DNA of 64,000 bases from Methanospirillum lacunae (GCF_003173355.1 NZ_QGMY01000006.1:248001-312000); one strand, 5' to 3'. Shown: positions 41,902 through 63,684, numbered from the stretch's first letter. Made by a program: numbers and translations. Notes: generated by a model from the letters alone, not told the origin.

Positions 41902-43830
41902 ATGGAACGATCAGGAGAGATAACCTCGCTCATTCTGAATGTGCTTACTATTCAGAAGAAAAGCATGAGTATTGTTGAAATCGCAGAACTAACGGGTGTT
42001 CACCGAAATGTTCTTGCTAAGTATATAAAAGTCTTAGAAGGACAAGGAAAAATCGAAGTTTCACGAATAGGAACAAAAAAGTATATTCAGTTAAGTCAGA
42101 GAATTCCAGCCTCATTTTTGAAAATTCTCACAACACATCCCTATTTGATCATTGATAAATATTTTTCCATACTAGAAGCAGGTAATAATATCCCGGAATT
42201 ATATCACAGTGAAAATTTCATCATTGACAATGTCACTAGCCAAAAAGAACTTGACAGGCTGTTTATTACAGATGAAACTAAAAAATACCTTAATATTGCT
42301 ATTAAAGGAAAAAAATCCACATACAAATTGGAAATTATTAACAAGCCATTTCCATATTGTTATCAATTAACTATCATCCCCATCGTCCTTGATAATGGAC
42401 GACCTGGATCAGGAGTGATAATTGAAGACATATCAGAGAGTGAACAGAATTTAAATATATTAAAACAGATCAGATCGGCATATCAGGAGTTATTAGATAG
42501 TCAAATACAATATGTGGTCCGTTTTGACATAGATAATACTATCACTACCTCAAACAGCACCTTCACTCAACACACAGGAATACAGGAGCAGGCCCTTATT
42601 GGATCTCAATTTATTCCCTCATTTCCAAAAGACTCTTTTGACTACGCTATAACTCAGTTATCATCCATTACAAAGGAAAAACCAACAATCTCTCTTGATG
42701 TGAAAAGACTGATTGCAAATGGTGATTATTCATGGGAAAGATGGAAAGTTCAGGGAGTATTTGATGACAAATCGAATTCCCCGTATGAATATTCAGCTGT
42801 TGGATTAGATATTACAGAATTAAAAAGATCAGAATTAGAATACCAACACTTACAGGAACATTTTGAATCATTAATCAAAGAAAGGACAACTGAACTTCGA
42901 GAACTCAACAGTGAATTACTACACGAAATTTATCGGAGGGAGACTGTTGAGCGTGAACTTACAGTTACTAAATTTGTTATGGACAGTGCTAAGGATTATA
43001 TCTTTCTTTTAAATTCAGATGGAGATATTGAATATATGAACACTAAAGCACAAGAAATTCTTCCACTGTCCGAAAATGAAGTCATAAATATTCGCAGTAT
43101 TATAAGCAATGACTCGTCATCCGGAATTCAAAATCCATTTTCGTTTTCTCTGCATGAAATTGTAAATTTAGGAATCCCTACTATAAAAGGGTCGATTAAA
43201 CGATCAGACAAAGAAAAAATTCCTATTGAGATTACTATAAATAAAATCGTTGACCGTGGAAAAGATGTTTTTTGTTGTATAGCCAGGGATATAACTGATC
43301 GCAAAAAAATTGAGACTGATTTATATCTTTATCGAAAACATCTGGAGCAAATAATCGACGAACGAACTAAACGGCTTCAAAAAGAAATCGAAGACAAAAA
43401 GAGAGTTGAAAAAACATTAAAAAATTGCAATGATCATTTCAAATTATTTATTGATGACTCGATTGAAATGGTTCTTTTATATCAAATAGACAGTGCAAAG
43501 TATTTGGATTCAAATTTAAGAGCAAATGCTTTTTTTACTCTTAATAAAAATAGTTTGGAAAAAACAATTTCTGAAAAACTTTCGAGAATAAATCTTGATA
43601 ATAGTGAGAAGATTCTGGATTTTTTTTCCTCCATCATTTCAGATATCAAACCATATGAAGAACGAATATTCAACCGGATGATTTTTTTGGAGCCTGACAA
43701 CGCAATAGATGCTGTGATCCGAATTAAAAGAATAATTTCAAATAATAATCACTATGTCAGGATTGGTATTACCGATATCAGTTCAATCACAGCATATAAG
43801 ACAGATTTCCATGATCAGAAAAAAGAATAA
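41902..43830 (+). CDS. Winged-helix protein with multiple PAS domains
   Basis: A 642-residue protein. The N-terminal winged helix-turn-helix (about 1-66: MSIVEIAELTGVHRNVLAKYIKVLEGQGKIEV) is followed by a PAS-like segment (about 70-185), two clear PAS domains with C-terminal caps (about 205-320, GLDITELKRSE; about 350-465, CIARDITDRKKIE), coiled coils, and a last, weaker PAS (about 500-635). There is no kinase domain. It is probably a one-component sensor/transcription factor, though DNA binding is inferred. It is convergent with a REC-PAS/kinase pair 5 nt away. Confidence 0.88.
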   Translation: MERSGEITSLILNVLTIQKKSMSIVEIAELTGVHRNVLAKYIKVLEGQGKIEVSRIGTKKYIQLSQRIPASFLKILTTHPYLIIDKYFSILEAGNNIPELYHSENFIIDNVTSQKELDRLFITDETKKYLNIAIKGKKSTYKLEIINKPFPYCYQLTIIPIVLDNGRPGSGVIIEDISESEQNLNILKQIRSAYQELLDSQIQYVVRFDIDNTITTSNSTFTQHTGIQEQALIGSQFIPSFPKDSFDYAITQLSSITKEKPTISLDVKRLIANGDYSWERWKVQGVFDDKSNSPYEYSAVGLDITELKRSELEYQHLQEHFESLIKERTTELRELNSELLHEIYRRETVERELTVTKFVMDSAKDYIFLLNSDGDIEYMNTKAQEILPLSENEVINIRSIISNDSSSGIQNPFSFSLHEIVNLGIPTIKGSIKRSDKEKIPIEITINKIVDRGKDVFCCIARDITDRKKIETDLYLYRKHLEQIIDERTKRLQKEIEDKKRVEKTLKNCNDHFKLFIDDSIEMVLLYQIDSAKYLDSNLRANAFFTLNKNSLEKTISEKLSRINLDNSEKILDFFSSIISDIKPYEERIFNRMIFLEPDNAIDAVIRIKRIISNNNHYVRIGITDISSITAYKTDFHDQKKE

Positions 43831-48365: not shown

Positions 48366-48467
48366 AAAAATTAATTTCCATATACAACCCAGAAATTATT
48401 TTAAAACATGTATATTATCAGGTTTATATTGCCTATTAGTAAAAAAAATAATTGCCCAAAGATTCTA

Positions 48468-48491
48468 TTGCATGGCAAATATTCATATACA
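48468..48491 (+). promoter_or_regulatory. TTGCATGGCAA element plus TATA box, promoter of the PEGA gene
   Basis: TTGCATGGCAA (48468-48478, dyad TTGC-ATG-GCAA) lies six bases before CATATAC. The TATA centre is about 25 nt before the ATG at 48512, so the message should be leaderless. The same element occurs at 53621 and 54825. Confidence 0.65.
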
Positions 48492-48511
48492 GAATTTGTT
48501 GACAATAACAC

Positions 48512-48892
48512 ATGTCACTTCAGTCAGGATTTTTTACTATTGAATATAAAAGACTCCGGGTTGGAGTCTTTGCATTATTACTAATTTTTATAATATGCAG
48601 CATTGGAGGCATGGTTTCTGCTGCCAATCCGGGGTATGGATATTTCAAAGTTGACTCAGCACCCCAAACTGGAGAAGTCATATTTGATGGTAAATCTTAT
48701 GGATACACTCCAGCCTTGATTCAGGTGAATGAGGATTCCTCTCCATCTCATGAAGTAGTTGTAAAAATGGAGGGATATGAGGAATATTCCCAACAGATCT
48801 CGTACAATCCAGGAAGAGGACAAACGGTTCCAATTTCCCTGGATGCCAGCCATACACTTGATCATATCGGGGAATTTTTAAGTCGCCAGTGA
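48512..48892 (+). CDS. PEGA-domain surface protein
   Basis: A 126-residue exported protein: signal peptide with a basic start (KRLRVGVFALLLIFIICSIGGMVSA, about 13-37) followed by one PEGA domain (about 43-110: GYFKVDSAPQTGEVIFDGKSYGYTPALIQV). The PEGA core is the SAPQTGEV variant here. PEGA domains are small beta-sandwiches on archaeal and bacterial cell surfaces, thought to bind other envelope components. The gene has the shared promoter element and a leaderless-type start. Confidence 0.9.
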   Translation: MSLQSGFFTIEYKRLRVGVFALLLIFIICSIGGMVSAANPGYGYFKVDSAPQTGEVIFDGKSYGYTPALIQVNEDSSPSHEVVVKMEGYEEYSQQISYNPGRGQTVPISLDASHTLDHIGEFLSRQ

Positions 48893-49002
48893 CTATCAGC
48901 ACTCCTGACTGATTAACCATCATCAATTTATATGATATATTTTTGAAAAAAGGCAGTATGTATATTTTTATCCGGAATTAGGAATTTGTTGAAGATAATA
49001 AA

Positions 49003-51825
49003 ATGATAATAGATATTATTCAATGTAATGTACATTCACACCACATAGCAGTTCAAAAAATCCTTCATTTTATTTTTATTATTTTCTCATGTTCACTGGT
49101 ATGTGGCACATGTTTTGCTGAAAACCAGACGGCAGTGGACCTTTATACCCAGGGAAACAATCTCGCAAAAAATAGCAAATATCCAGAAGCAATTGAATTA
49201 TACGAAAAAGCAATTTTAATTAATCAGAGTTATCTGGATCCCTGGATGGGAAAAGGGAATGCTTATCTAAATTTAAAGTTATTTAACGATTCTATAGCAG
49301 CATATGATAAAGTCATTGCAATAGATCCCAATAATATCCAGGCATGGAATGGGAGAGGAAACTCCCTGAAAAATATAAACAATTTTGAGGATGCACTTAC
49401 CGCATATAACAAAGTTATTACAATTAATCCGAACCTGACTTCAGGCTATATCAATAAGGCAGGAATTCTTCAAAGTTTGAAACGATACAATGAGTCCATT
49501 CCTCTATATAATCGGGCTATCGAACTAGATCCAAAATCATTGTCAACATACCTTAATAAAGCCAGTGCAATTCAGAAATTAAATAAATATGATGATGCTC
49601 TGGCGGTATATGATCAAGTGCTGGCTCTAAATTCAAGTTATAGCCCTGCTTATACCGGGAAAGCGGGGGTTCTTTCAACACTAAAAAAGTATAACGAAGC
49701 ATTAGATGTTTATGATCATGTTATAAAAAACGATTCAAAATCAATATGGGCGTGGAATAGTCGGGGAGATCTTCTCCAGACGCTTAAGCGATATGATGAA
49801 GCAGTCAGTTCCTATGATCATGCTATTGCGTTGAACGAAACAAATGCTCCTGTATGGAGGAGTAAAGCAAAATGTTTACAAATCCTGAAGAGACCCACAG
49901 AAGCAATGACTGCTCTTGATCAAGCACTAGCAAATAATCCAAATTATTTCGAAGCATGGATGGACAGAGGTAACCTCCAGTTGAATCTTAATAATTACCA
50001 GGGATCTCAGCAATCATTTGATCAGGCAATCAAAATCAATAAAAACGATACTTCTGCCTGGAATGGAAAAGGTCAGGCATTGATGGGATTAGAAAAGTAT
50101 AACGATGCAACAGATGCATTTAGTCAGTGTCTCTCAATAAATCCAAATCTGACAAATGTCCGGAAAAACCTTGAACAGGCTCAGTTTAAGATGTTCCAGA
50201 TCACAAAAAATAGTACATATAATACATCAAACACCCCGGCATCAGGTAATTTTTCAAAGGAAACTGCTTCAATCCCTTCACAAGTCACTGATTCACCTCA
50301 ACCTCATCAGAAAAATGCAATATTTGATCTGATAGATCTTTTTTTTGGGAATAAGCCTGTTATACCAAAAGTAAGGAGTGAGGATTCACCAGATATTCCA
50401 AATCAGGTACGGCTTGTATTACCAGTTGATGTTTCACTCCAGAATAATACTTTTCTGATAACAGATCAGGGGAATCATAGTATTATCATATCTGATTATT
50501 CCGGAAACATCAGACTCATTATTGGTGGACCCAAACAATCAGATCTTTTCACCGAGGTGACAAGTGCAACATTAGATAAACAGGGGAATATTTATGTTCT
50601 TGACGCCGGAGCAAATAAAATATTCAAATTTGATGCCTTGGGTAACATGTTAATTTCCTGGGGATCTCAGGGATCAGATCCAGGTCAATTTAAAAATCCC
50701 AGACATATTGACTATGCACCACGTTCTGATTCGCAGGAAGGGATACTTTCTGTCGCTGATTCAGGAAACAACAGAATTCAACTTTTTGATCTTAATGGAG
50801 AATATCTCTCTTCACTCATCACATTGCAAAAGTCTGATAGTTTCACTTCCAGTGAACCGCATCTAAATCAAAGTAATAATGTAATTGAAAATCATTCATA
50901 CAAAAAAATTATTCCAGAAGAAAAAGCAGTTCCCGCTCTTGCTGAACGAAATTTCAATGTACGCATCAAAGATACTACATATCCTCTATCAGTAATCGTT
51001 GATAGAAGGATATACCTGGGTGCACAAAATTGCAAAAATCTGGATGTAAATATCACGAGTAAAAATCCTGAACAATGGATCCATCTTTTAGAAGGAGCCC
51101 TATCAGATCCCACAACCATTGATACAATTGAAAATATTTCATCCCTCCTTGAAAAATGTTCAGTAGAAAATCAACTTACCGATAGTGAAAACCTCGATCT
51201 TATCACAACTTTTATTCAACAGATACCTTTGGTCAATGAACCTAATACAAGGTATCCTGTTGAAGTTCTTCATGACAAAAAGGCGAGTTCACCAGATAAG
51301 GCCATATTTTTATACGGGCTTCTCTATAAAGCAGGATATGATGTTGTTTTTCTCTCATACCCGGGAACAAACCATTGTGCTGTAGGGATACGATCTGATA
51401 AATCAGTCAATAAACCCGTAATGAAAGAATATACGATTGATAATATGTCATATATCTATGTGAACCCGGATAATCCGGATATTATTGGTAGGATTAACCC
51501 ATCATTGAACAATATTGATCCCTTTATACTACATATTCTCCCACAGGATTCAAAACATTCTCTCATTCTCCCAGAGAGAGAGAAAAGGCTTGCCATTCTT
51601 GAGACATTGAATTCTTCGGTTGAAAAGAAAAAATTCTTGGAGGAAAACAGGGGAAAATACAGCAGTGCAGCAAAAAAACAAGCTCAGACAGACTTGGATA
51701 AACTCAAATCTGTTACAACATATGTTGAAAGTAATACATGGAATACCGAAGGAATATCCATGCGATTAAAAAATTCCAAAGTTGGAGATATTCAATTAAT
51801 GTTTGGAAGTGAATTCAGATCTTAA
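49003..51825 (+). CDS. Secreted TPR-NHL protein with degenerate transglutaminase-like domain
   Basis: A 940-residue exported protein. It has a signal peptide (about 18-40), ten tetratricopeptide repeats (about 42-385, each with the ...AW..KG..L..L..Y..A...YD.AI..(D/N)P.. pattern), a polar linker, about three NHL beta-propeller blades (about 465-605: LITDQGNHSII, IYVLDAGANKIFKFD, LSVADSGNNRIQLFD), and a C-terminal domain aligned to archaeal transglutaminase-like enzymes (RYPVEVL, then GLLYKAGYDVVF, NHCAVGI with H791). The catalytic cysteine position reads A-S-S-P-D-K, so the nucleophile is replaced (S763). It probably acts as a surface scaffold. No Shine-Dalgarno site; a TATA-like element lies about 36 nt upstream. 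Confidence 0.88.
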   Translation: MIIDIIQCNVHSHHIAVQKILHFIFIIFSCSLVCGTCFAENQTAVDLYTQGNNLAKNSKYPEAIELYEKAILINQSYLDPWMGKGNAYLNLKLFNDSIAAYDKVIAIDPNNIQAWNGRGNSLKNINNFEDALTAYNKVITINPNLTSGYINKAGILQSLKRYNESIPLYNRAIELDPKSLSTYLNKASAIQKLNKYDDALAVYDQVLALNSSYSPAYTGKAGVLSTLKKYNEALDVYDHVIKNDSKSIWAWNSRGDLLQTLKRYDEAVSSYDHAIALNETNAPVWRSKAKCLQILKRPTEAMTALDQALANNPNYFEAWMDRGNLQLNLNNYQGSQQSFDQAIKINKNDTSAWNGKGQALMGLEKYNDATDAFSQCLSINPNLTNVRKNLEQAQFKMFQITKNSTYNTSNTPASGNFSKETASIPSQVTDSPQPHQKNAIFDLIDLFFGNKPVIPKVRSEDSPDIPNQVRLVLPVDVSLQNNTFLITDQGNHSIIISDYSGNIRLIIGGPKQSDLFTEVTSATLDKQGNIYVLDAGANKIFKFDALGNMLISWGSQGSDPGQFKNPRHIDYAPRSDSQEGILSVADSGNNRIQLFDLNGEYLSSLITLQKSDSFTSSEPHLNQSNNVIENHSYKKIIPEEKAVPALAERNFNVRIKDTTYPLSVIVDRRIYLGAQNCKNLDVNITSKNPEQWIHLLEGALSDPTTIDTIENISSLLEKCSVENQLTDSENLDLITTFIQQIPLVNEPNTRYPVEVLHDKKASSPDKAIFLYGLLYKAGYDVVFLSYPGTNHCAVGIRSDKSVNKPVMKEYTIDNMSYIYVNPDNPDIIGRINPSLNNIDPFILHILPQDSKHSLILPEREKRLAILETLNSSVEKKKFLEENRGKYSSAAKKQAQTDLDKLKSVTTYVESNTWNTEGISMRLKNSKVGDIQLMFGSEFRS

Positions 51826-51915
51826 ATTTTCTCACTCTGGAGAATTTAGTTGAGTCATTATGAACATCTTTCAAAACACCATTGGTGCTGGTTTGGGAAT
51901 TAAGGGTAAGATATA

Positions 51916-52539
51916 ATGAAAACAAAATTAGTGTGTATAGCAATTATTGTATTAGGTTTACTATCATCTTGTGTTTATGGTGCAGAACTCAATATTTCTC
52001 AGGGAAATATTATCTCAAAATTACCATCACCAGTTGAATCACCCTCATCATCAACAATTACAGGATCAGATTATGTAAATCTGAAAACCATTGAGATTCC
52101 AAGTACTCCTGATAGTAAAACCCCGGTTATCAGATACACAAGTGATAATCTTCCTCCAACAATCAACGGGCTTATAGATCATATCGATTTCCAGACAACA
52201 AAAGATAAGAAAGGGCAGGTGTTTATTTATTTTAAACTCCCGGCCCCGGACGCTTCAGTTAATCAGTCCAGAGAAATTGGTGATTTCATTATCAATAGGA
52301 AAGAGTGGAATGGAGATCGATCTTTAGACTCAATACAAGCAGAAATCTATATTCACTGGGTTGCTGATTCTGCCCGGCCTCTGTTGTCAACAAATCCAGT
52401 TAATGAGCAGTTGTATAACCAGTACGTTATCGGAAGTAGTGACAAACGTCCAAGTCCAATTTACCCCACCCATTTAGGATATAATTATGAAGGGATGGAT
52501 AAGACAAATCTGATGGATCAATTCCTCCTGACTCTGTAA
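51916..52539 (+). CDS. Secreted protein with one copy of an unknown repeated domain
   Basis: A 207-residue exported protein (signal peptide about 1-22). AAGGG lies upstream of its ATG. The mature part carries one copy of a domain also found twice in the next gene: (L/I)IDHIDFQ.TK...GQV..YF, then (D)FI..(R/K).EW.G(D/N).S..SI...I..HW.AD..RP, and finally YVIG..D.RPSP..P.HLGY.Y.GM/L. The family is not known to me. It is probably cotranscribed with the TPR-NHL gene 91 nt upstream. Confidence 0.82.
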   Translation: MKTKLVCIAIIVLGLLSSCVYGAELNISQGNIISKLPSPVESPSSSTITGSDYVNLKTIEIPSTPDSKTPVIRYTSDNLPPTINGLIDHIDFQTTKDKKGQVFIYFKLPAPDASVNQSREIGDFIINRKEWNGDRSLDSIQAEIYIHWVADSARPLLSTNPVNEQLYNQYVIGSSDKRPSPIYPTHLGYNYEGMDKTNLMDQFLLTL

Positions 52540-52610
52540 CATCAATCGTGGGCTTCAGGCATATTGCCAATAAGTCCTATCTCTTTTATAATAATTGTTC
52601 AGGTTTTAAT

Positions 52611-53555
52611 ATGAATAGAAAGACAGGCTTGATATTTATTTCATTCATATTACTCTTATTTTTTATAACTTTCCAAATAGTAACAGATATTCCCCTGTCT
52701 CCATTAGAAAAGGATACAAGTATGTATCACCCAATTTTTCTAAACAAGACAAATGATAACTCTGTTCCGGTAATGGAATATAGGAATCAGGAAATTCCAA
52801 TTTCATTAAAAGGAACAATTGATCATATTGATTTTCAAATTACCAAAAAAAATTCAGGGCAGGTCCTGGTTTACTTTGTTCAAAATCCGGGATTCGTAAG
52901 TCTATCCAAATCACAACTCACATCAGACTTTATTGTCACAAGACCGGAATGGAGTGGAAATTATTCAGAAGAGTCAATTACATCAGTAATTTTTTTTCAA
53001 TGGGCAGAGAACTCAATAAAAGCAGATCCAATTCTCAAACACTTTCTTCCGGTATATGAATACATTTTTCATGAAAAAAATTATTTAAAAATATTGCATC
53101 CGGTTTACATCAGCCAATGGTACAGAGGAGAGGAAAAACCCATAGCCAGATATTTTGGTATGGATTTTTCTAAAGAGATGAGTACATATGTGGATGCGAT
53201 TGAATATCAAAATAATAATCGCGTAGATGCACAGATGTTAATTTATCTGAAAAATATCTGTGGATCAGCATGTTGGGAGTCTTCCAGTAAAATTGCTGAC
53301 TATATTATGAGTAAACCTGAGTGGTCAGGTGACAGGACGAAACTATCTATTACTACTGAAATATTTCTTCATTGGGTAGCCAAAGATATCAGACCGGTGT
53401 TTCAGATTAATTTATTTACTAAGGTTCTGTACAGGCACCTCGTAATTGGAGATGGTGATAGTAGACAAAGTCCGGTATCTCCAATTCACCTTGGATATTA
53501 TTATGCAGGACTTAATGAAACTCCGGTTATGGATCCATTCCTAAAGAGAATATAG
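52611..53555 (+). CDS. Membrane-anchored protein with two copies of the same unknown domain
   Basis: The start is set at the ATG at 52611, whose product begins MNRKTGLIFISFILLLFF; the frame extends upstream to a GTG at 52548. The 314-residue product has an N-terminal hydrophobic anchor or signal and two tandem copies of the domain of the previous gene: copy 1 about residues 52-170 (GTIDHIDFQITKKNSGQVLVYF, PEWSGNYSEESI) and copy 2 about 180-314 (YVDAIEYQNNNRVDAQMLIYL, PEWSGDRTKLSITTEIFLHWVA). Only copy 2 keeps the full YRHLVIGDGDSRQSPVSP end. Function unknown; apparent domain duplication. Confidence 0.82.
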   Translation: MNRKTGLIFISFILLLFFITFQIVTDIPLSPLEKDTSMYHPIFLNKTNDNSVPVMEYRNQEIPISLKGTIDHIDFQITKKNSGQVLVYFVQNPGFVSLSKSQLTSDFIVTRPEWSGNYSEESITSVIFFQWAENSIKADPILKHFLPVYEYIFHEKNYLKILHPVYISQWYRGEEKPIARYFGMDFSKEMSTYVDAIEYQNNNRVDAQMLIYLKNICGSACWESSSKIADYIMSKPEWSGDRTKLSITTEIFLHWVAKDIRPVFQINLFTKVLYRHLVIGDGDSRQSPVSPIHLGYYYAGLNETPVMDPFLKRI

Positions 53556-53620
53556 ATCATATTGCATGAACACAATATTACTTATTTTCGATAATAAAAG
53601 CAAAATTTTCAACATTTCTA

Positions 53621-53643
53621 TTGCATGGCAAATTCTTTTATAT
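53621..53643 (+). promoter_or_regulatory. TTGCATGGCAA element plus TATA box, promoter of the secreted protein
   Basis: TTGCATGGCAA at 53621-53631, then TTTTATAT (53636-53643). Predicted transcription start about 53666, leader about 32 nt. Same element and geometry as at 48468 and 54825. Confidence 0.65.
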
Positions 53644-53697
53644 TGATATTTCCAATTTCACGCAATAGTTATTATTAAAAAACTCAGAGAAATCACA

Positions 53698-54531
53698 ATG
53701 AAAAAGAAATTCTTTTTAATTATCATTTTAGTCCTGTTCATTTGGATATTTGGTCCTGTCATTGCTGACAGACTTCCGGGTCAAGAACCAGAAAACCAAA
53801 TTTTTAGCATTGATACTCTTATCGATGGAACCGGTGTTATTAAAGATAAATCTTCACTAAAATGGGAGATTTCCTCTAGTTATGCTATACCAACAGGCCA
53901 GTTATATCAAAATCAGTCCGTAGCAGAATCCATGTTTCTTGATAGCATTCTTACAAATGGTGGAAAGTTAAGTGAAAATAAAAATTTTGATTTTGATTCC
54001 AAGAGTAAAAGTAATGGGATGTATAATGTAGAGAATGCTAAGGTTCTCACTTATGCTAGTTCTCTTGGTGCCCATATGGTAGGAGAAGATGAATATACAC
54101 TCTCTGTTGCAGGGAGATCGCTTAATTTGGATTCTGATATTAGATGCGTTTTTACAGATCGCAATCTTGTTCTCCCTTCATTTTGCAATATTGTGTCAAC
54201 AAAAAGTAATTTAATTAATGTTAATACTGCTCAGGTTTCTTCCAAAGGTCAGATACGATCAGTTGGAAGTACAAATGTTACTAACGCAGGGTTAAATTTC
54301 CAACTTGCAGTATCCCCGGATGCAAATTCAGGTAGCGGTTTTGCAGATGGTATTGTAAAAACAATATTTGCTGGTAGCATTATGGAAGCCCGTGATGGTG
54401 AATACAGTTCCAATGAAGTTACCTGGAATAAAACAGCGGCTACGAATACCTGGAAAGATACAACTGAAGTTACCAGCGGAATCAAGAACATGCAGAAAGC
54501 ATTCACATATCAATCAGGATTTAGAATCTAA
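53698..54531 (+). CDS. Secreted beta-rich surface protein, paralogue of the gene at 11720
   Basis: A 277-residue exported protein. Signal peptide about 1-23 (KKKFFLIIILVLFIWIFGPVIA), then DRLPGQEPENQIFSIDTLI. Homologous over its length to the product of 11720-12646, keeping both cysteines (IRCVFT, SFCNIV), SPDANSGSGFADG, AGSIMEARDG and TWKDTTEVTSGIKNMQKAF. It ends after YQSGF and lacks the Ala/Ser/Pro-rich tail of the paralogue. A structural surface role is inferred from abundance of beta-prone repeats and the strong dedicated promoter. Confidence 0.87.
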   Translation: MKKKFFLIIILVLFIWIFGPVIADRLPGQEPENQIFSIDTLIDGTGVIKDKSSLKWEISSSYAIPTGQLYQNQSVAESMFLDSILTNGGKLSENKNFDFDSKSKSNGMYNVENAKVLTYASSLGAHMVGEDEYTLSVAGRSLNLDSDIRCVFTDRNLVLPSFCNIVSTKSNLINVNTAQVSSKGQIRSVGSTNVTNAGLNFQLAVSPDANSGSGFADGIVKTIFAGSIMEARDGEYSSNEVTWNKTAATNTWKDTTEVTSGIKNMQKAFTYQSGFRI

Positions 54532-54663
54532 TAAAAATTTTTTATGTATTACAGTAGTGCATCTAATCAATAAGTTACAGATTTCATCTTAATACCATAC
54601 TCAATTATTATTTTTAAAAATAATATTTTTTATATATGAAACTTAATAATTTTGAAAACTGAC

Positions 54664-54750
54664 ATGCCAAATATTGAAAATACAATTACTTCTGGAGAAG
54701 ATGGTTTACTAATAACTTCACTTAAAATCCAATTAATCAAAGTTTCTTAA
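54664..54750 (+). CDS. Possible 28-residue leaderless ORF
   Basis: MPNIENTITSGEDGLLI and about 11 more residues. An extended TATA box is centred about 30 nt before the ATG, the right place for a leaderless message, but coding character cannot be judged at this length. It might also be a remnant. Confidence 0.2.
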   Translation: MPNIENTITSGEDGLLITSLKIQLIKVS

Positions 54751-54824
54751 TTAATTTTTATTTCACTTTAAATTACAACGAAAATATAATAAAAATTTTT
54801 TATTAAATGTTTTTATTTATGAAT

Positions 54825-54846
54825 TTGCATGGCATATCCTTATATA
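54825..54846 (+). promoter_or_regulatory. TTGCATGGCAT element plus TATA box, promoter of the surface-glycan operon
   Basis: TTGCATGGCAT at 54825-54835 and TTATATA at 54840-54846. The predicted start is about 6 nt before the ATG at 54875. Third copy of the element. Confidence 0.65.
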
Positions 54847-56197: not shown

Positions 56198-57271
56198 ATG
56201 ATCACTATTATTCTAGGAACAAGACCAGAGATTATTAAAATGGCCCCGGTAATCAGGGCATGTAAAAAATATAATATTGCTTTTTCAATATTGCATACCG
56301 GTCAACATTATTCATATGAAATGGATCGAGTTTTTTTTGAGGACCTTTTGTTACCTCTTCCCCACTATAATCTGGATGTAGGTTCTGGTAGTCATGCAGA
56401 ACAGACAGCATCATTAATGACTGGTATTGAACAGGTATTAGTTAATAATACCCCGGATGTTGTTCTTGTCCAGGGTGATACCAATACAGTCCTTGCCGGG
56501 GGACTAGTTGGAGCGAAACTCCACATTCCAGTTGGTCATGTAGAAGCAGGACTCAGGAGTTATGATAGAACTATGCCTGAAGAGATCAATCGGATTGTAG
56601 TTGATCATGTGTCAGATTACCTTTTTGCTCCAACAAAATTGTCAACCCATAATCTGATCAAAGAAGGAATTGAGGAATCAAAAATATATACCACCGGGAA
56701 TACCGTGGTTGATTCACTATTTCAGAACCTGAAGATTGCTGAAGAAAAATCAGAAGTTGTTGAAAAAAATAGCCTTACTTCAGGAGATTATCTGCTTGTC
56801 ACTGTTCATAGAGCTGAGAATGTTGATTATTACCCACAATTAAGTCGAATAATTACAGGTATTCAAAAAGTAAGTGATATCTATTCTCTTCCTGTAATTT
56901 TTCCAATGCATCCAAGAACTCAAAAAATGATTCAAAAATTTCGCATATCCACAGATGGCATTAAAGTCATTTCTCCGGTAAGTTATCTTGATTTTCTTAA
57001 ACTTGAAAAAAATGCCCGAATGATCCTTACAGACTCAGGAGGTGTCCAGGAAGAAGCATGTATTCTTCAGGTCCCTTGTGTTACACTGAGGGAGAACACT
57101 GAAAGACCGGAGACTGTTGATGTTAAAGCAAATATCCTCGCGGGAAGTGATCCGGACAAAATAACCGCTGCTACCAAAGTTATGATTTCATCACATTCAG
57201 ATTGGATTAATCCATATGGAGATGGAAATGCAGGAGAGAGAATTGTTGAGATTTGTGAATCTCATATATAA
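56198..57271 (+). CDS. wecB: UDP-N-acetylglucosamine 2-epimerase (non-hydrolysing)
   Basis: A 357-residue GT-B fold epimerase. It has LGTRPEIIKMAPVI (6-19), VQGDTNTVLAG, HVEAGLRSYDRTMPEEINR and LTDSGGVQEEA, all expected active-site segments. It makes UDP-ManNAc from UDP-GlcNAc, or in WbpI-type homologues epimerises a 3-acetamido uronic acid derivative. The amidotransferase two genes downstream makes the latter possible. Confidence 0.94.
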   Translation: MITIILGTRPEIIKMAPVIRACKKYNIAFSILHTGQHYSYEMDRVFFEDLLLPLPHYNLDVGSGSHAEQTASLMTGIEQVLVNNTPDVVLVQGDTNTVLAGGLVGAKLHIPVGHVEAGLRSYDRTMPEEINRIVVDHVSDYLFAPTKLSTHNLIKEGIEESKIYTTGNTVVDSLFQNLKIAEEKSEVVEKNSLTSGDYLLVTVHRAENVDYYPQLSRIITGIQKVSDIYSLPVIFPMHPRTQKMIQKFRISTDGIKVISPVSYLDFLKLEKNARMILTDSGGVQEEACILQVPCVTLRENTERPETVDVKANILAGSDPDKITAATKVMISSHSDWINPYGDGNAGERIVEICESHI

Positions 57272-57313
57272 AAAAATTAGTTATATGACCTTCAAGATCA
57301 GGAAATTCCAATT

Positions 57314-58249
57314 ATGAGTTCAAAAAAGATACTTGTAACAGGCGGCGCAGGATTTATCGGAACCAACTTAGTGAATGAACTTCGCTCCAGGGGCCATGAT
57401 GTTATTGCTGCTGATATTGCAAATCATGATATTGACAGTTATATCAGAGCTGATGTAAAAAATTTTCGCCAAATTGAACGCATTTTTGATAAAAATAAAT
57501 TTGATTATGTTTACCACCTTGCTGCAGAGTATGGGCGTTGGAATGGTGAAGATTATTATGAAAACCTCTGGCAAACCAATGTGATCGGAACGAAACATAT
57601 GCTCAGACTACAGGAAAAATTAAAATTCAGGATGATTTTTTATTCCAGTGCTGAAGTGTATGGTGATTACACCGGTATTATGACAGAAGATGTCATGGAA
57701 ATTAATCCGGTAAAAGATACCTATCAGATGAATGACTATGCCATAACCAAATGGGCAGGTGAACTCATGTGTATGAACTCAGCAAAGATGTTTGGTACAG
57801 AAACAGTCAGAGTGAGACCTGTTAATTGTTATGGCCCTCATGAACATTATACCCCATATAGAGGTTTTATTCCAAAATTCATATATCAGGCTCTTCATAA
57901 TCAACCGTATTCAGTTTTTAAGGATCATAAACGGATAATTGATTTTGTTGAGGATTCGTGTAGAACCTGGGCAAATATTGTTGACAATTTCATTCCAGGT
58001 GAAGTATACAATGTCGCCGGAAGACCAGAGTGGGAGAGAGATATCAAGCAATATTCTGACTTAATCCTGAAAGAAATCGGCATCAATGATTCTTTGGTTA
58101 CATATCATGAATCTGAACCATTTACGACCAAGATTAAAACAATAGATTGTACAAAAGCAATTAAGGATCTTCATCATAACCCACTGGTAACTCCAGAAGA
58201 AGGTATTAAGCGAACTGTTGAATGGATGAAATGGTTTTACCGTATCTAG
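57314..58249 (+). CDS. NAD-dependent sugar epimerase/dehydratase 1
   Basis: Extended short-chain dehydrogenase, 311 residues. The cofactor site is GGAGFIG (10-16), SSAEVYGDY the substrate-side serine region, and YAITK (Y142, K146) the catalytic pair. The specificity is not readable; it belongs to the GalE/RmlB-like group and acts on a nucleotide sugar. It lies 42 nt after wecB and 10 nt before the second SDR gene. Confidence 0.93.
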   Translation: MSSKKILVTGGAGFIGTNLVNELRSRGHDVIAADIANHDIDSYIRADVKNFRQIERIFDKNKFDYVYHLAAEYGRWNGEDYYENLWQTNVIGTKHMLRLQEKLKFRMIFYSSAEVYGDYTGIMTEDVMEINPVKDTYQMNDYAITKWAGELMCMNSAKMFGTETVRVRPVNCYGPHEHYTPYRGFIPKFIYQALHNQPYSVFKDHKRIIDFVEDSCRTWANIVDNFIPGEVYNVAGRPEWERDIKQYSDLILKEIGINDSLVTYHESEPFTTKIKTIDCTKAIKDLHHNPLVTPEEGIKRTVEWMKWFYRI

Positions 58250-58259
58250 GGGAAAAACG

Positions 58260-59261
58260 ATGAATGATATAAATGAAGGATTTGAAGACAAGACGATATT
58301 GGTCACCGGAGGTGCAGGAGCAGTAGGTGGAAACTTAGTCAGAGCATTAGATGCACTTGATACCAAGAAGATTATAATTTTGGATAATCTTTCTTCTTCT
58401 TATGTCTGGAACATCCCTAAAAGTCCAAAAATTCAGTTTATACAGGGTGATATACTAAATGATGAAAACCTAAAATGGGCATTCCGTGAGAAACCCCAAA
58501 TTGTATATCATCTTGCTGCTCATTTTGCTAACCAGAACTCTGTAGATAGCCCTGAAAAAGACCTTTTGGTAAATGGATTAGGAATTCTAAAAGTTCTCCA
58601 ATATGCACAACTTGGATCAGTAGATCGGTTCGTATATTCCTCTTCAGGTTGCGGAGTATATGGCCTAGATTCAAAGATGCCTTTTGAAGAACATGATATC
58701 TCTATTCATCTCCATACTCCTTACCAGGTTACAAAACTTCTCGGAGAGTTATACACGAATTATTTTTATAATATGTATGACCTCCCAATTGTAAATGCAC
58801 GTTTTTTTAATTCATTTGGGCCTGGGGAAGTCCCAGGTAAGTATCGTAATGTAATACCAAATTTCTTTTACTGGTCAATGAAGGGGTTACCACTTCCAAT
58901 CACCGGAGATGGTACAGAAACACGTGACTGGACCTATGTTGGGGATATTGTAAATGGTTTACTTGCAATGGGAGTACAAGAAAAAGCTATTGGTGAAGCA
59001 TTTAACCTTGGAGCAGGAAAAGAGCAACGTGTTATCGATATGGCAAATGCTGTGAACAACCTAACAGGAAATGTTGCCGGGATTAAATATACACAACGAC
59101 GAGATTGGGACGTAAAAACAAGATTATTATCATGTATTGATAAATCACGCAAGAATCTGAAGTATAATCCGGTAATAGATTTTTCAAAAGGGTTAGAAAA
59201 AACACATGAATGGTTTGTTGAAAATTGGAATGATATAAAAAATTGTGCAGAATTTTCCTAA
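58260..59261 (+). CDS. NAD-dependent sugar epimerase/dehydratase 2
   Basis: Extended short-chain dehydrogenase, 333 residues. The cofactor site is GGAGAVG (17-23), serines SSSGCGVYG, and catalytic YQVTK (Y155, K159). It is only distantly similar to the preceding SDR, so a different step or substrate is likely. Its 3' end is close to the true start of the amidotransferase at 59282. Confidence 0.93.
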   Translation: MNDINEGFEDKTILVTGGAGAVGGNLVRALDALDTKKIIILDNLSSSYVWNIPKSPKIQFIQGDILNDENLKWAFREKPQIVYHLAAHFANQNSVDSPEKDLLVNGLGILKVLQYAQLGSVDRFVYSSSGCGVYGLDSKMPFEEHDISIHLHTPYQVTKLLGELYTNYFYNMYDLPIVNARFFNSFGPGEVPGKYRNVIPNFFYWSMKGLPLPITGDGTETRDWTYVGDIVNGLLAMGVQEKAIGEAFNLGAGKEQRVIDMANAVNNLTGNVAGIKYTQRRDWDVKTRLLSCIDKSRKNLKYNPVIDFSKGLEKTHEWFVENWNDIKNCAEFS

Positions 59262-59281
59262 TTAAAAAAATTGGTTTTTTT

Positions 59282-61336
59282 ATGTGTGGAATATTTGGAA
59301 TAGTGACAGAACAAAATTCTGTAATTTCTATATCTCTCGAAAAAATTATTAAAAAACTCTTTAAATTATCTGAGTCTCGTGGAAAAGAAGCATCAGGTAT
59401 TGTAGTAAGATCAGGTTCTCAAATCGCTGTAGTTAAGGAACCAAAACCTGCGAAAAAATTAATTAAATCCAGAGAATTCGAAACATTATTAAATAAATAT
59501 ATTTTTGATGACATAAATAATAAAACTATTAAAAAACCTTTAGCAATTCTTGGTCATTCACGTCTCGTTACAAGTGGAAAAAGTGAACTCAATTCTAATA
59601 ACCAACCGGTTATTAAAGATGGGGCTGTAGGTATTCATAACGGGGTTATTGTTAATGATAAAAAAATATGGGATACATACCCTATTATAAAAAAAGAATT
59701 TGATATTGATAGTGAAATAATTTTTAGTTTACTCCAGATGTATCGACACCAAGGCCTTAACATCATTGAAGCAACCAGATCCACTTACAGAGATATTGAT
59801 GGTTCAGCATCAATTGCTACTCTCTTTGATGATATTGACGATTTATTACTTGCCACAAATACTGGATCTCTTTATATTTGTTTAAATATAAAATTTAATT
59901 TTTTAATATTCGCTTCAGAAAGAAATATTATAAACCAATTATTTAGATCCTTTTCATATCGCAATTTTTTTACTTCATCAGAAATTTTTCAATTAAAACC
60001 AGGTGAAGGTGGTATTATTCCACTATCACAGATAGGTTTTAAAAAGTTTGATTTTATTCAACCAGAATCTGATATTCAAACTTCCCCTTACCATGAGAAA
60101 ATTGAGATTCTTAATTTATCTCCATCTTCTCCAGAAATAAAAAATCAAACCAGATTAAATTTCTTTATTTCAGACGGTATAAAAGATGTAATGCTTAATA
60201 ATTGGGAGAACATCTTTTCAAATCACAATAACCTAAAACGATGTACAAAATGCATTCTTCCCGAGACAATGCCATATATTTCATTTGATAAAGATGGGGT
60301 CTGTAATTATTGTAGAAATTTTGAAAACCGAAATAACAAACTTAAAGGGGAGAAAGCATTGAAGGACCACGTAAAAAAATTTCAAAGTACTAATGGTGAT
60401 CCTGACTGTATAGTTGGGTTTAGTGGTGGAAGAGACAGTTCTTTTGGTTTAGATTATATCAAAAATACCCTTAAATTGCATCCGATTGCATTTACCTATG
60501 ACTGGGCTATGGTTAACGACCTCGCTCGAAGGAATCAAGCCCGGGTTGTAAGTAGATTAGGTGTTGAACAAATCATTGTCTCTGCTGATATAAAGAAAAA
60601 ACGGGAAAATATAAGGAAAAATCTTCTTGCATGGCTTAATAAACCAGATCTTGGAATGGTTCCCCTTCTTATGGCAGGTGATAAACAATTTTATTATTAT
60701 TTTCATAAGATAAGAAAACAGACAGGTGTAAAACAGTTTATATTCTGTGGAGGTCATGAAATCGAAGAAACACCATTTAAATACGGTTTTTGTGGAGTGG
60801 ATCATGGTGTCAATTCGGTGATGAACTGCCTAACGGGGATATCACGTTTAAACAAGATTCGGATGATACTTTATTTTGCGAAGCAATATGTCACAAATCC
60901 GGGATACATTAATTCTTCCATTTTTGACACCCTTTTTGCTTATTACTGTACATATCTGCTAAAAGATGACTATCTCTATCTATACCATTATATCGAATGG
61001 GACGAGGACAAAATTGTCACAAGTATCAGAGAGAAGTTCGACTGGGAGGGCGTACCAGATACTTATGCTACCTGGAGAATTGATGATGGGACTGCAGCAT
61101 TTTATAATTACATTTATCTTACCATGGCAGGGTTCACAGAGTTTGATAACTTCAGAAGTTATCAGATTCGTGAAGGAAAGATTACCCGGGATAAAGCAAT
61201 GGAATTAATTAAAGATGAAAATAAACCTCGATTTGAAGCGATTGAGTGGTATGCAGAAGCGGTTGGGATTGATATAAATAAAACAATTACCGTTATTAAT
61301 CAAGCACAGAAATTGCAAAAAAATATTTCAAAATGA
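59282..61336 (+). CDS. Class-II glutaminase fused to a WbpG-type PP-loop amidotransferase
   Basis: The start at 59282 is fixed by chemistry: Cys2 (MCGIFGI) is the N-terminal nucleophile of class-II glutamine amidotransferases, and the open frame upstream to 59243 would bury it. Residues 2-260 form the glutaminase domain (GHSRLVTSG 91-99, HNGVI 119-123). Residues about 318-684 form an N-acetyl-sugar amidotransferase with a zinc-like cluster (C321, C324, C341, C344) and the PP-loop SGGRDS (381-386). In bacteria WbpG takes ammonia from separate HisH/HisF-like proteins to convert a uronic acid to its amide or amidine. Here both functions are on one chain, as in asparagine synthetase B. Confidence 0.93.
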   Translation: MCGIFGIVTEQNSVISISLEKIIKKLFKLSESRGKEASGIVVRSGSQIAVVKEPKPAKKLIKSREFETLLNKYIFDDINNKTIKKPLAILGHSRLVTSGKSELNSNNQPVIKDGAVGIHNGVIVNDKKIWDTYPIIKKEFDIDSEIIFSLLQMYRHQGLNIIEATRSTYRDIDGSASIATLFDDIDDLLLATNTGSLYICLNIKFNFLIFASERNIINQLFRSFSYRNFFTSSEIFQLKPGEGGIIPLSQIGFKKFDFIQPESDIQTSPYHEKIEILNLSPSSPEIKNQTRLNFFISDGIKDVMLNNWENIFSNHNNLKRCTKCILPETMPYISFDKDGVCNYCRNFENRNNKLKGEKALKDHVKKFQSTNGDPDCIVGFSGGRDSSFGLDYIKNTLKLHPIAFTYDWAMVNDLARRNQARVVSRLGVEQIIVSADIKKKRENIRKNLLAWLNKPDLGMVPLLMAGDKQFYYYFHKIRKQTGVKQFIFCGGHEIEETPFKYGFCGVDHGVNSVMNCLTGISRLNKIRMILYFAKQYVTNPGYINSSIFDTLFAYYCTYLLKDDYLYLYHYIEWDEDKIVTSIREKFDWEGVPDTYATWRIDDGTAAFYNYIYLTMAGFTEFDNFRSYQIREGKITRDKAMELIKDENKPRFEAIEWYAEAVGIDINKTITVINQAQKLQKNISK

Positions 61337-61342
61337 GATTTT

Positions 61343-62530
61343 ATGAAAATATTAATCATTCAGGATACTGACTGGATTCGTAGAAATCCATATCAACATA
61401 CCCATCTAGCTGAACGATTAGTTCAGAAAGGCCATGAAATCCGGGTAATTGATTATGAAATTCTATGGAAAGATGAAGGAAAAAAGGAGTTATTATCAAA
61501 AAGAGAAGTTCATCACGTTTCCAGGATTTTTCCGGATGTAAATATTATGGTGATACGACCTCCAATTTTAAAAATATCCGTTTTAGATTATCTTTCGATG
61601 GTTTTTACTTATCGGTCAGAAATTAACCGACAGATCAAAGAATTTAAACCTGATTTAATCTGGGGCAATGATATTCTTACTACTTTTTTAGCATATCGTG
61701 CTGCAAAAAAAAATCGAATTCCAACGTTATTTTATTCAATAGATATAGATTATCGGTTGATTCCACAAAAGTATTTACAGCCGATCGGAAAAATGATTGA
61801 AAGTTGGAATATTCGTAATGCTGATTTAGTCCTTTCAATTAACGAAGGGTTAAGGGAATATACAATTCGGATGGGAGCCTCACAAGAAAAAACCGATGTG
61901 ATACGAGCTGGGATAGACCTCAGCAAATATGATCCTTCGAAAAATGTCAGAAATGAAATCCGTATGCAATACGGAATTAAGAAAGATGATATTGTCCTAT
62001 TCTTTATGGGTTGGTTGTATAACTTTTCAGGGCTTAAAGAAGTTGCACATGAATTAGCGAAAATAATAGAGAAATATCCCAACCTGAAATTATTTATTGT
62101 AGGGGATGGTGATGCGTATAATGATTTAATGATTATTAGAAAGAAGATGAATCTTCAAAAAAATTTAATATTAACAGGGAAACAACCTTTTGAAAAGATT
62201 TCATCATTAATTGCATGTGCTGATATTTGCCTTCTTCCTGCACATGATAATGAAATTATGCACGATATTGTCCCAATTAAAATGTATGAATATCTAGCGA
62301 TGGGTAAGCCAATAATTTCAACAAAATTGTATGGAATTATGAAAGAGTTTGGAGACGGTCATGGTGTTATCTATGCTGATACTCCAAAAGACGTTTTAAA
62401 AGTTGTGCTCAACACCATTAATAATAGTAATTTAATAAAAGAAGGAAAAAATTCCAGAAAATTTGTAGAAAAGAGTAGTTGGACTGCAATCACTGACATT
62501 TTTGATGCTAAAATTAAGGAAGTAATATGA
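61343..62530 (+). CDS. Glycosyltransferase family 4 (first)
   Basis: A 395-residue GT-B glycosyltransferase. The N-terminal acceptor domain has GHEIRVIDYE. The C-terminal donor domain has VLFFMGWLYNFSGLKEVAHELAKI, LTGKQPFEKI, and CADICLLPAHDNEIMHDIVPIKMYEYLAMGKPII (the E in MYEY replaces the classical EX7E helper). Acceptor unknown. It starts 6 nt after the amidotransferase and overlaps the next GT4 gene by four bases (ATGA). Confidence 0.93.
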   Translation: MKILIIQDTDWIRRNPYQHTHLAERLVQKGHEIRVIDYEILWKDEGKKELLSKREVHHVSRIFPDVNIMVIRPPILKISVLDYLSMVFTYRSEINRQIKEFKPDLIWGNDILTTFLAYRAAKKNRIPTLFYSIDIDYRLIPQKYLQPIGKMIESWNIRNADLVLSINEGLREYTIRMGASQEKTDVIRAGIDLSKYDPSKNVRNEIRMQYGIKKDDIVLFFMGWLYNFSGLKEVAHELAKIIEKYPNLKLFIVGDGDAYNDLMIIRKKMNLQKNLILTGKQPFEKISSLIACADICLLPAHDNEIMHDIVPIKMYEYLAMGKPIISTKLYGIMKEFGDGHGVIYADTPKDVLKVVLNTINNSNLIKEGKNSRKFVEKSSWTAITDIFDAKIKEVI

Positions 62531-63684
62531 ATATCCTTCAGGTAATTCCATATTTTAATCCAAAAAGGGGCGGAGATGTAAAGGTATGCTATGAAATATC
62601 TAAATACTTAAAATATTATGGACATAATGTGACAATTATTACAACAGACCTTGAATATAATGTAGAATTTGTCAATTTAGTTCAAAGAATTGGTATAAAG
62701 GTGATTAGTTTCCCAATTTTTTTAAATATAACCTTATTTTTATACACGCCATCTATAAAAAAATGGCTTTATGATAATATAAATACATTCGACTTAATTC
62801 ATCTACATAATTATCGAACATATCAAAATGTAATTGTTTCTTCATACGCCAAAAAATATAAAGTTCCTTATTTAATACAAGCACATGGAGATTTACCATA
62901 TTATACAAAGAAAATGCTAAAATTGATTTTCGATGTTAAATGGGGTCGAAATATATTAAAAAATGCCAATATGTCTATTGCACTTACAAATGATGAATTT
63001 AATTATTATATCAAAGAAGGAGTAGCCTCCTCTAAAATAATAATCGTCCCTAATGGATTAGAATTAAAAGATTATGAAAAATTACCAGTTAAAGGCACTT
63101 TTAGAAAAAAATTTAAACTAGTGAATGAGGATAAGGTTATTCTATATGTTGGAAGAATTCATCATAGTAAAGGATTAGATTTTCTAATTCGCTCATTTTC
63201 CATATTAGGAAAAAAAGACTCCACTTTTAAACTTGTATTAATAGGACCAGATTATGGATATCAGAAAAAACTAGTAAATTTAATAAATGAGTTGAATATT
63301 TCTAACTCAGTAAAAATAATAGGATATTTAAGTAATCTAGAAAAAATTCAAGCATTCATTGATTCGGATGTCTTTGTTACACCACGTTTTTATGGATTTC
63401 CGGTTACTTTTTTAGAAGCATGTATATGTAATATTCCCATTGTTACAACAAACTTTTTCGATCAACTTGAATGGATCAACAATTTTGTTGGTTATTCTGT
63501 AGATTATGATGAAAAAAAATTTGCTCTAGCAATTTCTAGTTTAATTGCTGACGAAAATAAGAGAATTGAATTCGGCCATAATGGCAAGAATCTGATTCTC
63601 AATAAGTTTAATTGGAAAACTATTGTTCAAGATCTATCAATAAAATACGAACAAATGATTACTAGATCGCCTAACCAATTGTGA
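62527..63684 (+). CDS. Glycosyltransferase family 4 (second)
   Basis: A 385-residue GT-B enzyme. The acceptor side has FNPKRGGDVKVCYEISKYLKYYG and LIHLHNYRTYQ. The donor side has ILYVGRIHHSKGLDFLIRSF, KIIGYLSN and VFVTPRFYGFPVTFLEACICNIPIV. It is typical of O-antigen or N-glycan assembly. Strongly A+T-rich codon use. It starts inside the end of the previous GT4 gene, and a methyltransferase gene begins 5 nt after its stop. Confidence 0.93.
   Translation: MNILQVIPYFNPKRGGDVKVCYEISKYLKYYGHNVTIITTDLEYNVEFVNLVQRIGIKVISFPIFLNITLFLYTPSIKKWLYDNINTFDLIHLHNYRTYQNVIVSSYAKKYKVPYLIQAHGDLPYYTKKMLKLIFDVKWGRNILKNANMSIALTNDEFNYYIKEGVASSKIIIVPNGLELKDYEKLPVKGTFRKKFKLVNEDKVILYVGRIHHSKGLDFLIRSFSILGKKDSTFKLVLIGPDYGYQKKLVNLINELNISNSVKIIGYLSNLEKIQAFIDSDVFVTPRFYGFPVTFLEACICNIPIVTTNFFDQLEWINNFVGYSVDYDEKKFALAISSLIADENKRIEFGHNGKNLILNKFNWKTIVQDLSIKYEQMITRSPNQL

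Follow-up and report, generated by a model that had tools for sequence, protein, structure and literature searches.

The same ten-letter word, TTGCATGGCA, stands just upstream of a TATA box before three genes in a 64,000-nucleotide stretch of the Methanospirillum lacunae genome (hereafter the window), and the question that this locus raises is whether the word is a shared regulatory site and, if so, which protein reads it. Exact copies begin at 48468, 53621 and 54825, all on the plus strand, against a shuffle mean of 0.18, and none of 100 shuffles reached three. No further exact copy occurs in the window, and all three lie where an earlier reading made from the DNA alone (the sequence-only reading) had placed them. 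That reading had also seen a TATA box five or six bases behind each copy; the boxes are there, this spacing being a count to the start of the hexamer, and the tetramer TATA itself starts 8 nt past GGCA in every case (48486, 53639 and 54843), so that the three units can be superimposed. The genes downstream are likewise of the kinds described, namely a protein with a PEGA domain, a secreted protein with no Pfam match and a glycan operon led by a GT2 glycosyltransferase. A shared element and a regulon built on it are well supported by the sequence comparisons that follow; our proposal, to which we give about an even chance, is that the element serves as the operator for a regulon found throughout Methanospirillum and that its reader is an autoregulated one-component activator with a helix-turn-helix (HTH) and four PAS domains.

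Genome-wide statistics were drawn from pattern-search counts and sampled stretches of the window's genome (G000; 3.74 Mb, 43.5% GC, 99.9% complete). A genome-wide search, of the kind that the sequence-only reading had proposed, returned 21 exact copies of TTGCATGGCA and none of the reversed control word, where a hand calculation from base composition gives about 6.6 copies. Coding sequence makes up about 83% of what was sampled, yet 12 of the 21 copies are intergenic, and 11 of these twelve face a TATA box; the other nine lie within open reading frames (ORFs) or at an ORF edge and are near the chance level. A composite of the word and its surroundings, TTGCATGGCAWATNNTNWTATA, matched 38 times with at most two mismatches in 10 of 12 Methanospirillum genomes (reversed control, 0), the two genomes with no match being 64–75% complete, and a 24-mer allowed three mismatches matched 35 times in six genomes (control, 0). 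In other genera of the family there are at most single scattered matches, such that the element is essentially absent outside Methanospirillum, and a weight matrix built from 35 sites found no site of at least 9 bits in 225 kb of G000 sampled elsewhere. One could argue that a 10-mer has simply met AT-rich intergenic sequence by chance, since several genomic copies are expected and nine of the 21 are intragenic, but the empty controls, the fixed phase and the conservation across species speak against this, and the composite and 24-mer searches refute it; we regard it as scarcely credible. A literature search for the word itself returned a single match, an unrelated insect paper.

The 35-site matrix gives the full unit as cTATTGCATGGCAWATnYTnWTATA. 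Position 0 is T at every site and its mirror position is A or T about equally often; the centre is asymmetric and near-invariant, with A at position 4 and G at position 6, and the symmetric part is limited to TGC-ATG-GCA, a 9-bp dyad. Because the symmetric core reaches no further and the centre is asymmetric, the longer dyad TTGC-ATG-GCAA of the sequence-only reading, perfect as it is in the first two copies of the window, does not hold as a general rule across the 35 sites. The register to the TATA box was assessed on the exact copies, a set not chosen for TATA, with offsets of 0–21 allowed past GGCA: in most of the 12 intergenic copies the TATA match that scores best starts at offset 4 or 6, and the nine intragenic copies have no preference for either. 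Since this set was not selected for TATA, the phase and the constant orientation are real, whereas in the 35-site set, whose members were picked by pattern, the phase is partly built in. The sequence-only reading had named two results that would speak against it, many copies with no relation to promoters and a spacing that is not conserved; neither was seen, the copies outside promoters being close to chance and the spacing conserved. The TATA 8-mer occupies unit positions 14–21, which leaves positions 8–13 (CAWATn) for the B-recognition element (BRE), so the operator abuts and partly overlaps the BRE. The hexamer CAWATn departs from VRAAA/RNWAAW, and four tRNA promoters inspected for a BRE background gave no clear result.

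A comparison with related genomes, also part of the original suggestion, adds enrichment across the genus and retention of the element before orthologous genes. A second Methanospirillum genome, G007, carries the element at all three window promoters, with distances to the ATG in the two genomes of 44/44, 77/76 and 50/50 nt, and gene order around the three promoters is kept; at the second site, compared by eye, the flanks have diverged and the element is unchanged. PEGA proteins are a target conserved between species, with a desulfoferrodoxin gene coming first in some. A sugar epimerase is also kept as a target between species, and the promoter of the divergently transcribed secreted protein beside it has its own copy of the element; further targets kept across species are a GT4/GT5 glycosyltransferase, secreted TPR proteins and several secreted proteins of no family. 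A gene for a CheY-like receiver carries the element in seven genomes. By a simple hydrophobicity rule, an N terminus of the exported type is present in 9 of the 18 first-gene families, compared with 25% of background ORFs (Fisher p = 0.03), a p-value that is indicative only because the family list was curated by hand, and glycan enzymes make up four more of the 18. The idea of one regulon that would join surface proteins with glycan synthesis is thus well supported as to the regulon, by enrichment, phase and orthologs, and moderately supported as to its surface and glycan theme, the CheY-like receiver and an HTH-PAS regulator being members as well.

That regulator is encoded at G000:C8:437148-439271. 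Its 708-residue product has a winged HTH at the N terminus, then four PAS domains, and lacks a kinase domain (Pfam), the make-up of an HTH-PAS one-component protein; AlphaFold2 supports this fold (mean pLDDT 82), and the best matches in the PDB are PAS/LOV domains. The weight matrix uncovers a degenerate copy of the element 43 nt upstream of the gene, and all ten Methanospirillum orthologs of this protein, here called HTH-PAS4, have the element 36–43 nt before the ATG in the form TGC[A/G/T]TGGCAWANNTTTA; the operator thus stands at the promoter of its own candidate regulator, as in regulons of the TFB-RF1 type. Among ten other HTH-PAS paralogs sampled in G000 the best promoter score is at most 2.1 bits, compared with 19.8 for the candidate. 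Several orthologs in other genera of the family keep the right half together with the TATA box (GGCAAATATTTAT, GGCATATCTTTAT, GGGCATATATTTAT), and in two genomes of genus g9 a variant, TTGATTGGCAAATATTTATGG, occurs once each at up to three mismatches and only before the orthologous regulator gene, the search pattern being a stringent one that could miss variant sites. From these sequence relations, HTH-PAS4 is most likely the reader of the element. The window holds an HTH-PAS paralog of another subfamily (41902-43830), 4.6 kb upstream of the PEGA site, and HTH-PAS paralogs also lie near PEGA loci in other Methanospirillum genomes. The window's own paralog was considered as the regulator and set aside, as its promoter has no element and its recognition helix differs.

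Paralogs of this kind are abundant, with 58–80 matches per near-complete Methanospirillum genome when PAS-only proteins are included. Proteins of a second subfamily have a recognition helix that reads HRTT rather than the NRNS of the candidate, and close to the start codon of their own genes stands a different word, TATGTACGACAT. Eleven of the 12 Methanospirillum genomes contain this 12-mer once and the twelfth contains it twice (control, 0); in most of them it lies immediately before the HRTT-subfamily gene (G000:C8:311355-311366, with the matching loci L187-L198 in the other genomes); the second copy in G009 (L199) is located elsewhere. In G002 and G004 the copy that faces the HTH-PAS gene has G as its last base (TATGTACGACAG), and the opposite strand carries the exact copy some 150 bp away, the HTH-PAS reading frame at the G004 locus not being visible. 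A second copy or near-copy of the 12-mer, in opposite orientation and about 150 bp away, is seen in G000 as well as in these two genomes. In a third group (INRNSMAKYL) the promoter bears TGC-AAG-GCA, a word that at the stringency tested turned up at no other place in the genus. The words TGC-ATG-GCA, TGC-AAG-GCA and TGT-ACG-ACA are built alike, which lends support to the idea that 3+3+3 dyads are what these proteins read in front of their own genes. A wider picture would then be a large paralog family, each member autoregulated through its own 3+3+3 dyad with the helix (NRNS, HRTT) setting specificity, in which the site of one paralog has expanded, in Methanospirillum only, into a surface and glycan regulon; we offer this tentatively, as somewhat short of probable. 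In the searchable literature we found no DNA targets for the HTH-PAS one-component family of methanogens, whose members share the make-up of the candidate and its paralogs.

Several archaeal systems show how such an element could work. TFB-RF1 of the Thermococcales binds a palindrome that precedes a weak BRE by a conserved distance, is autoregulated and activates by recruiting TFB (PMC5937170). The Methanospirillum element is similar in that a short near-palindromic operator stands at a fixed distance upstream of BRE/TATA, also at the candidate regulator's own promoter, but it differs from TFB-RF1/TRBM (TCTGAANTTCAGA) in its DNA word, its protein (winged HTH plus four PAS domains), the overlap of the right half-site with the BRE, the larger number of targets and the surface and glycan theme, and in that activation here is inferred. 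Membership in the TFB-RF1 family itself was rejected, as the consensus here is TATTGCATGGCAWAT and the TCTGAANTTCAGA motif is not present. EarA of Methanococcus and Thermococcales (TACATA / A(C/G)(C/G)TACA(T/C)) also has an activator site fixed just upstream of BRE/TATA, is known or thought to recruit TFB and controls a cell-surface structure (PMC10665913); its sites, however, are set 9–11 bp upstream of the BRE and often come in two or three repeats. The archaellum/EarA regulon was likewise rejected, since our element has no TACATA and the archaellin loci fetched do not carry it except for one out-of-phase copy (G000:C1:80258). That copy (L001:3001) matches TTGCATGGCA exactly and precedes an archaellin gene by 212 nt, but it is not in register with the TATA of that gene. 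TrmBL1 of Pyrococcus (TGM; TATCAC-N5-GTGATA) shares with our element a palindromic operator whose position relative to BRE/TATA sets the sign of regulation, with activation from upstream and repression from downstream (PMC4706686), but the words are unrelated, and TrmBL1 can have its site on either side of the promoter, whereas the Methanospirillum element keeps to one place.

The sequence-only reading had left two choices, a target for a special TFB or the site of an activator. By its geometry, abutting and overlapping the BRE in fixed phase, the element suggests an autoregulated activator of the TFB-RF1/EarA type, and the activator site is the favoured choice because the phase is exact and the orientation constant. 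An HTH-PAS4 dimer would bind the 9-bp dyad TGC-ATG-GCA and sit in exact register on the edge of the BRE, slightly overlapping it, some 14 bp upstream of the TATA centre. Once its PAS domains sense a signal, it would probably aid TFB/TBP assembly, and surface proteins, glycan synthesis, the CheY-like receiver and the regulator itself would be turned on in a joint response. Several observations weigh against this proposal. The left half of the sites at HTH-PAS4 genes in Methanospirillum is degenerate; an autoregulatory GGCA site is not visible in some outgroup orthologs (e.g., L162 and L164); and three derivations of a generic BRE/TATA consensus from ordinary G000 promoters, against which the weak BRE expected of TFB-RF1-type targets could be judged, yielded none that was usable.

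The right half of the dyad, moreover, extends into the BRE position, an arrangement that would suit a repressor just as well. The same protein at the same element could cover the BRE as a dimer and block TFB until a PAS signal releases it, much as TrmB shuts the TM operon by overlapping BRE and TATA (PMC4706686); autoregulation is frequently negative, and the paralog word TATGTACGACAT is placed close to where its own gene is expected to start, a location fit for a repressor. A repressor, however, needs neither an exact base-pair phase nor a single orientation, and the intergenic G000 copies keep both, an argument that is not decisive because shared BRE bases could enforce the phase; we consider repression doubtful, though a serious contender. 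It is also conceivable that another transcription factor reads the element and that the HTH-PAS gene is just one conserved target, given that the site at this gene is weaker than those of many targets (about 9–20 versus 30–40 bits) and that membership of a regulon is no proof of a master role. This is unlikely in view of the retention of the site by all ten orthologs across about 50% protein identity, its occurrence in genus g9 only with the regulator gene, and the private sites of sister paralogs at their own promoters. Finally, the bases that overlap the BRE position might belong to an alternative core promoter, either an extended BRE for a special TFB or a promoter class of a second TBP, two TBP genes being present in G000 (C2:219322-219840 and C2:891080-891595). 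TBP touches the TATA box and not DNA 10–20 bp upstream, while a near-palindromic core linked to an HTH gene suits a regulator. A special TFB was dropped as a candidate, only one TFIIB-family protein having been found in this 99.9% complete genome, and an alternative core promoter of either kind is very improbable.

Returning to the window with the HTH-PAS4 activator as the preferred reading, its presumed targets there are arranged as follows, all on the plus strand. Copy 1 has its core at 48468-48477 within an extended unit of 48465-48489, a probable BRE at 48476-48481 and its TATA at 48486-48489, in the phase conserved across the site set. It precedes an exported PEGA-domain protein (PF08308; 48512-48892), whose G007 ortholog also has the element, and an exported TPR/NHL repeat protein (49003-51825), possibly in one transcription unit with the PEGA gene, follows in an order kept in G007. 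Copy 2 (53621-53630; TATA at 53639-53642), found at the corresponding place in G007, stands before the secreted protein DRLPGQEPENQIF (53698-54531). Copy 3 (54825-54834; TATA at 54843-54846), which reads TTGCTTGGCATATACTTATATA in G007, precedes the GT2 glycosyltransferase (PF00535; 54875-56098) that leads the glycan operon. The remaining run of six genes (56198-63684), named from their sequences alone, comprises a UDP-GlcNAc 2-epimerase-like protein, two NAD-dependent epimerases, an asparagine-synthase-like protein and two GT4-like glycosyltransferases; the first four are 91–98% identical in G007, the compared stretch of which leaves out the two GT4 genes.

Some further features were observed at target loci. 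PEGA promoters from several species (L022, L033, L026, L044 and L054) share GGGGGGATYGATGA about 50 nt past the element, close to the expected start site; it forms a strong ribosome-binding site, and a short leader ORF may go with it. At L011 (G000:C8:134047-134068) and L059 (G007) a strong element has an in-phase TATA, and in G000 there is no clear protein gene directly downstream of it; a small ORF or RNA may start there. An Rfam search found no known RNA at the target loci. Downstream of the gene for the CheY-like receiver there is a conserved non-coding block of about 220–260 nt with frame-breaking indels (L017:2039-2368, minus strand, G000:C17:80081-80410; also L030, L035, L055, L056, L066 and L023). 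Its alignment spans 350 columns at a mean column identity of 78%, covariation is weak (2 of 70 predicted pairs) and Rfam gave no match at E up to 5; the block is a candidate for a new structured RNA.

Methanospirillum and similar hydrogenotrophic methanogens inhabit sheaths and syntrophic aggregates, and to our knowledge hardly any of the regulators that set their surface have been described. The outcome here is an exactly defined operator, a list of its targets and a specific candidate regulator. With them comes a first DNA word for the HTH-PAS sensors that are so numerous in Methanomicrobiales, a group of proteins for which the literature searched held no targets. It also seems that a site of autoregulation has here grown into a regulon. 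If the reading is true, the way in which HTH-PAS proteins read their dyads would amount to a readable protein–DNA code in a family of sensors without described targets.
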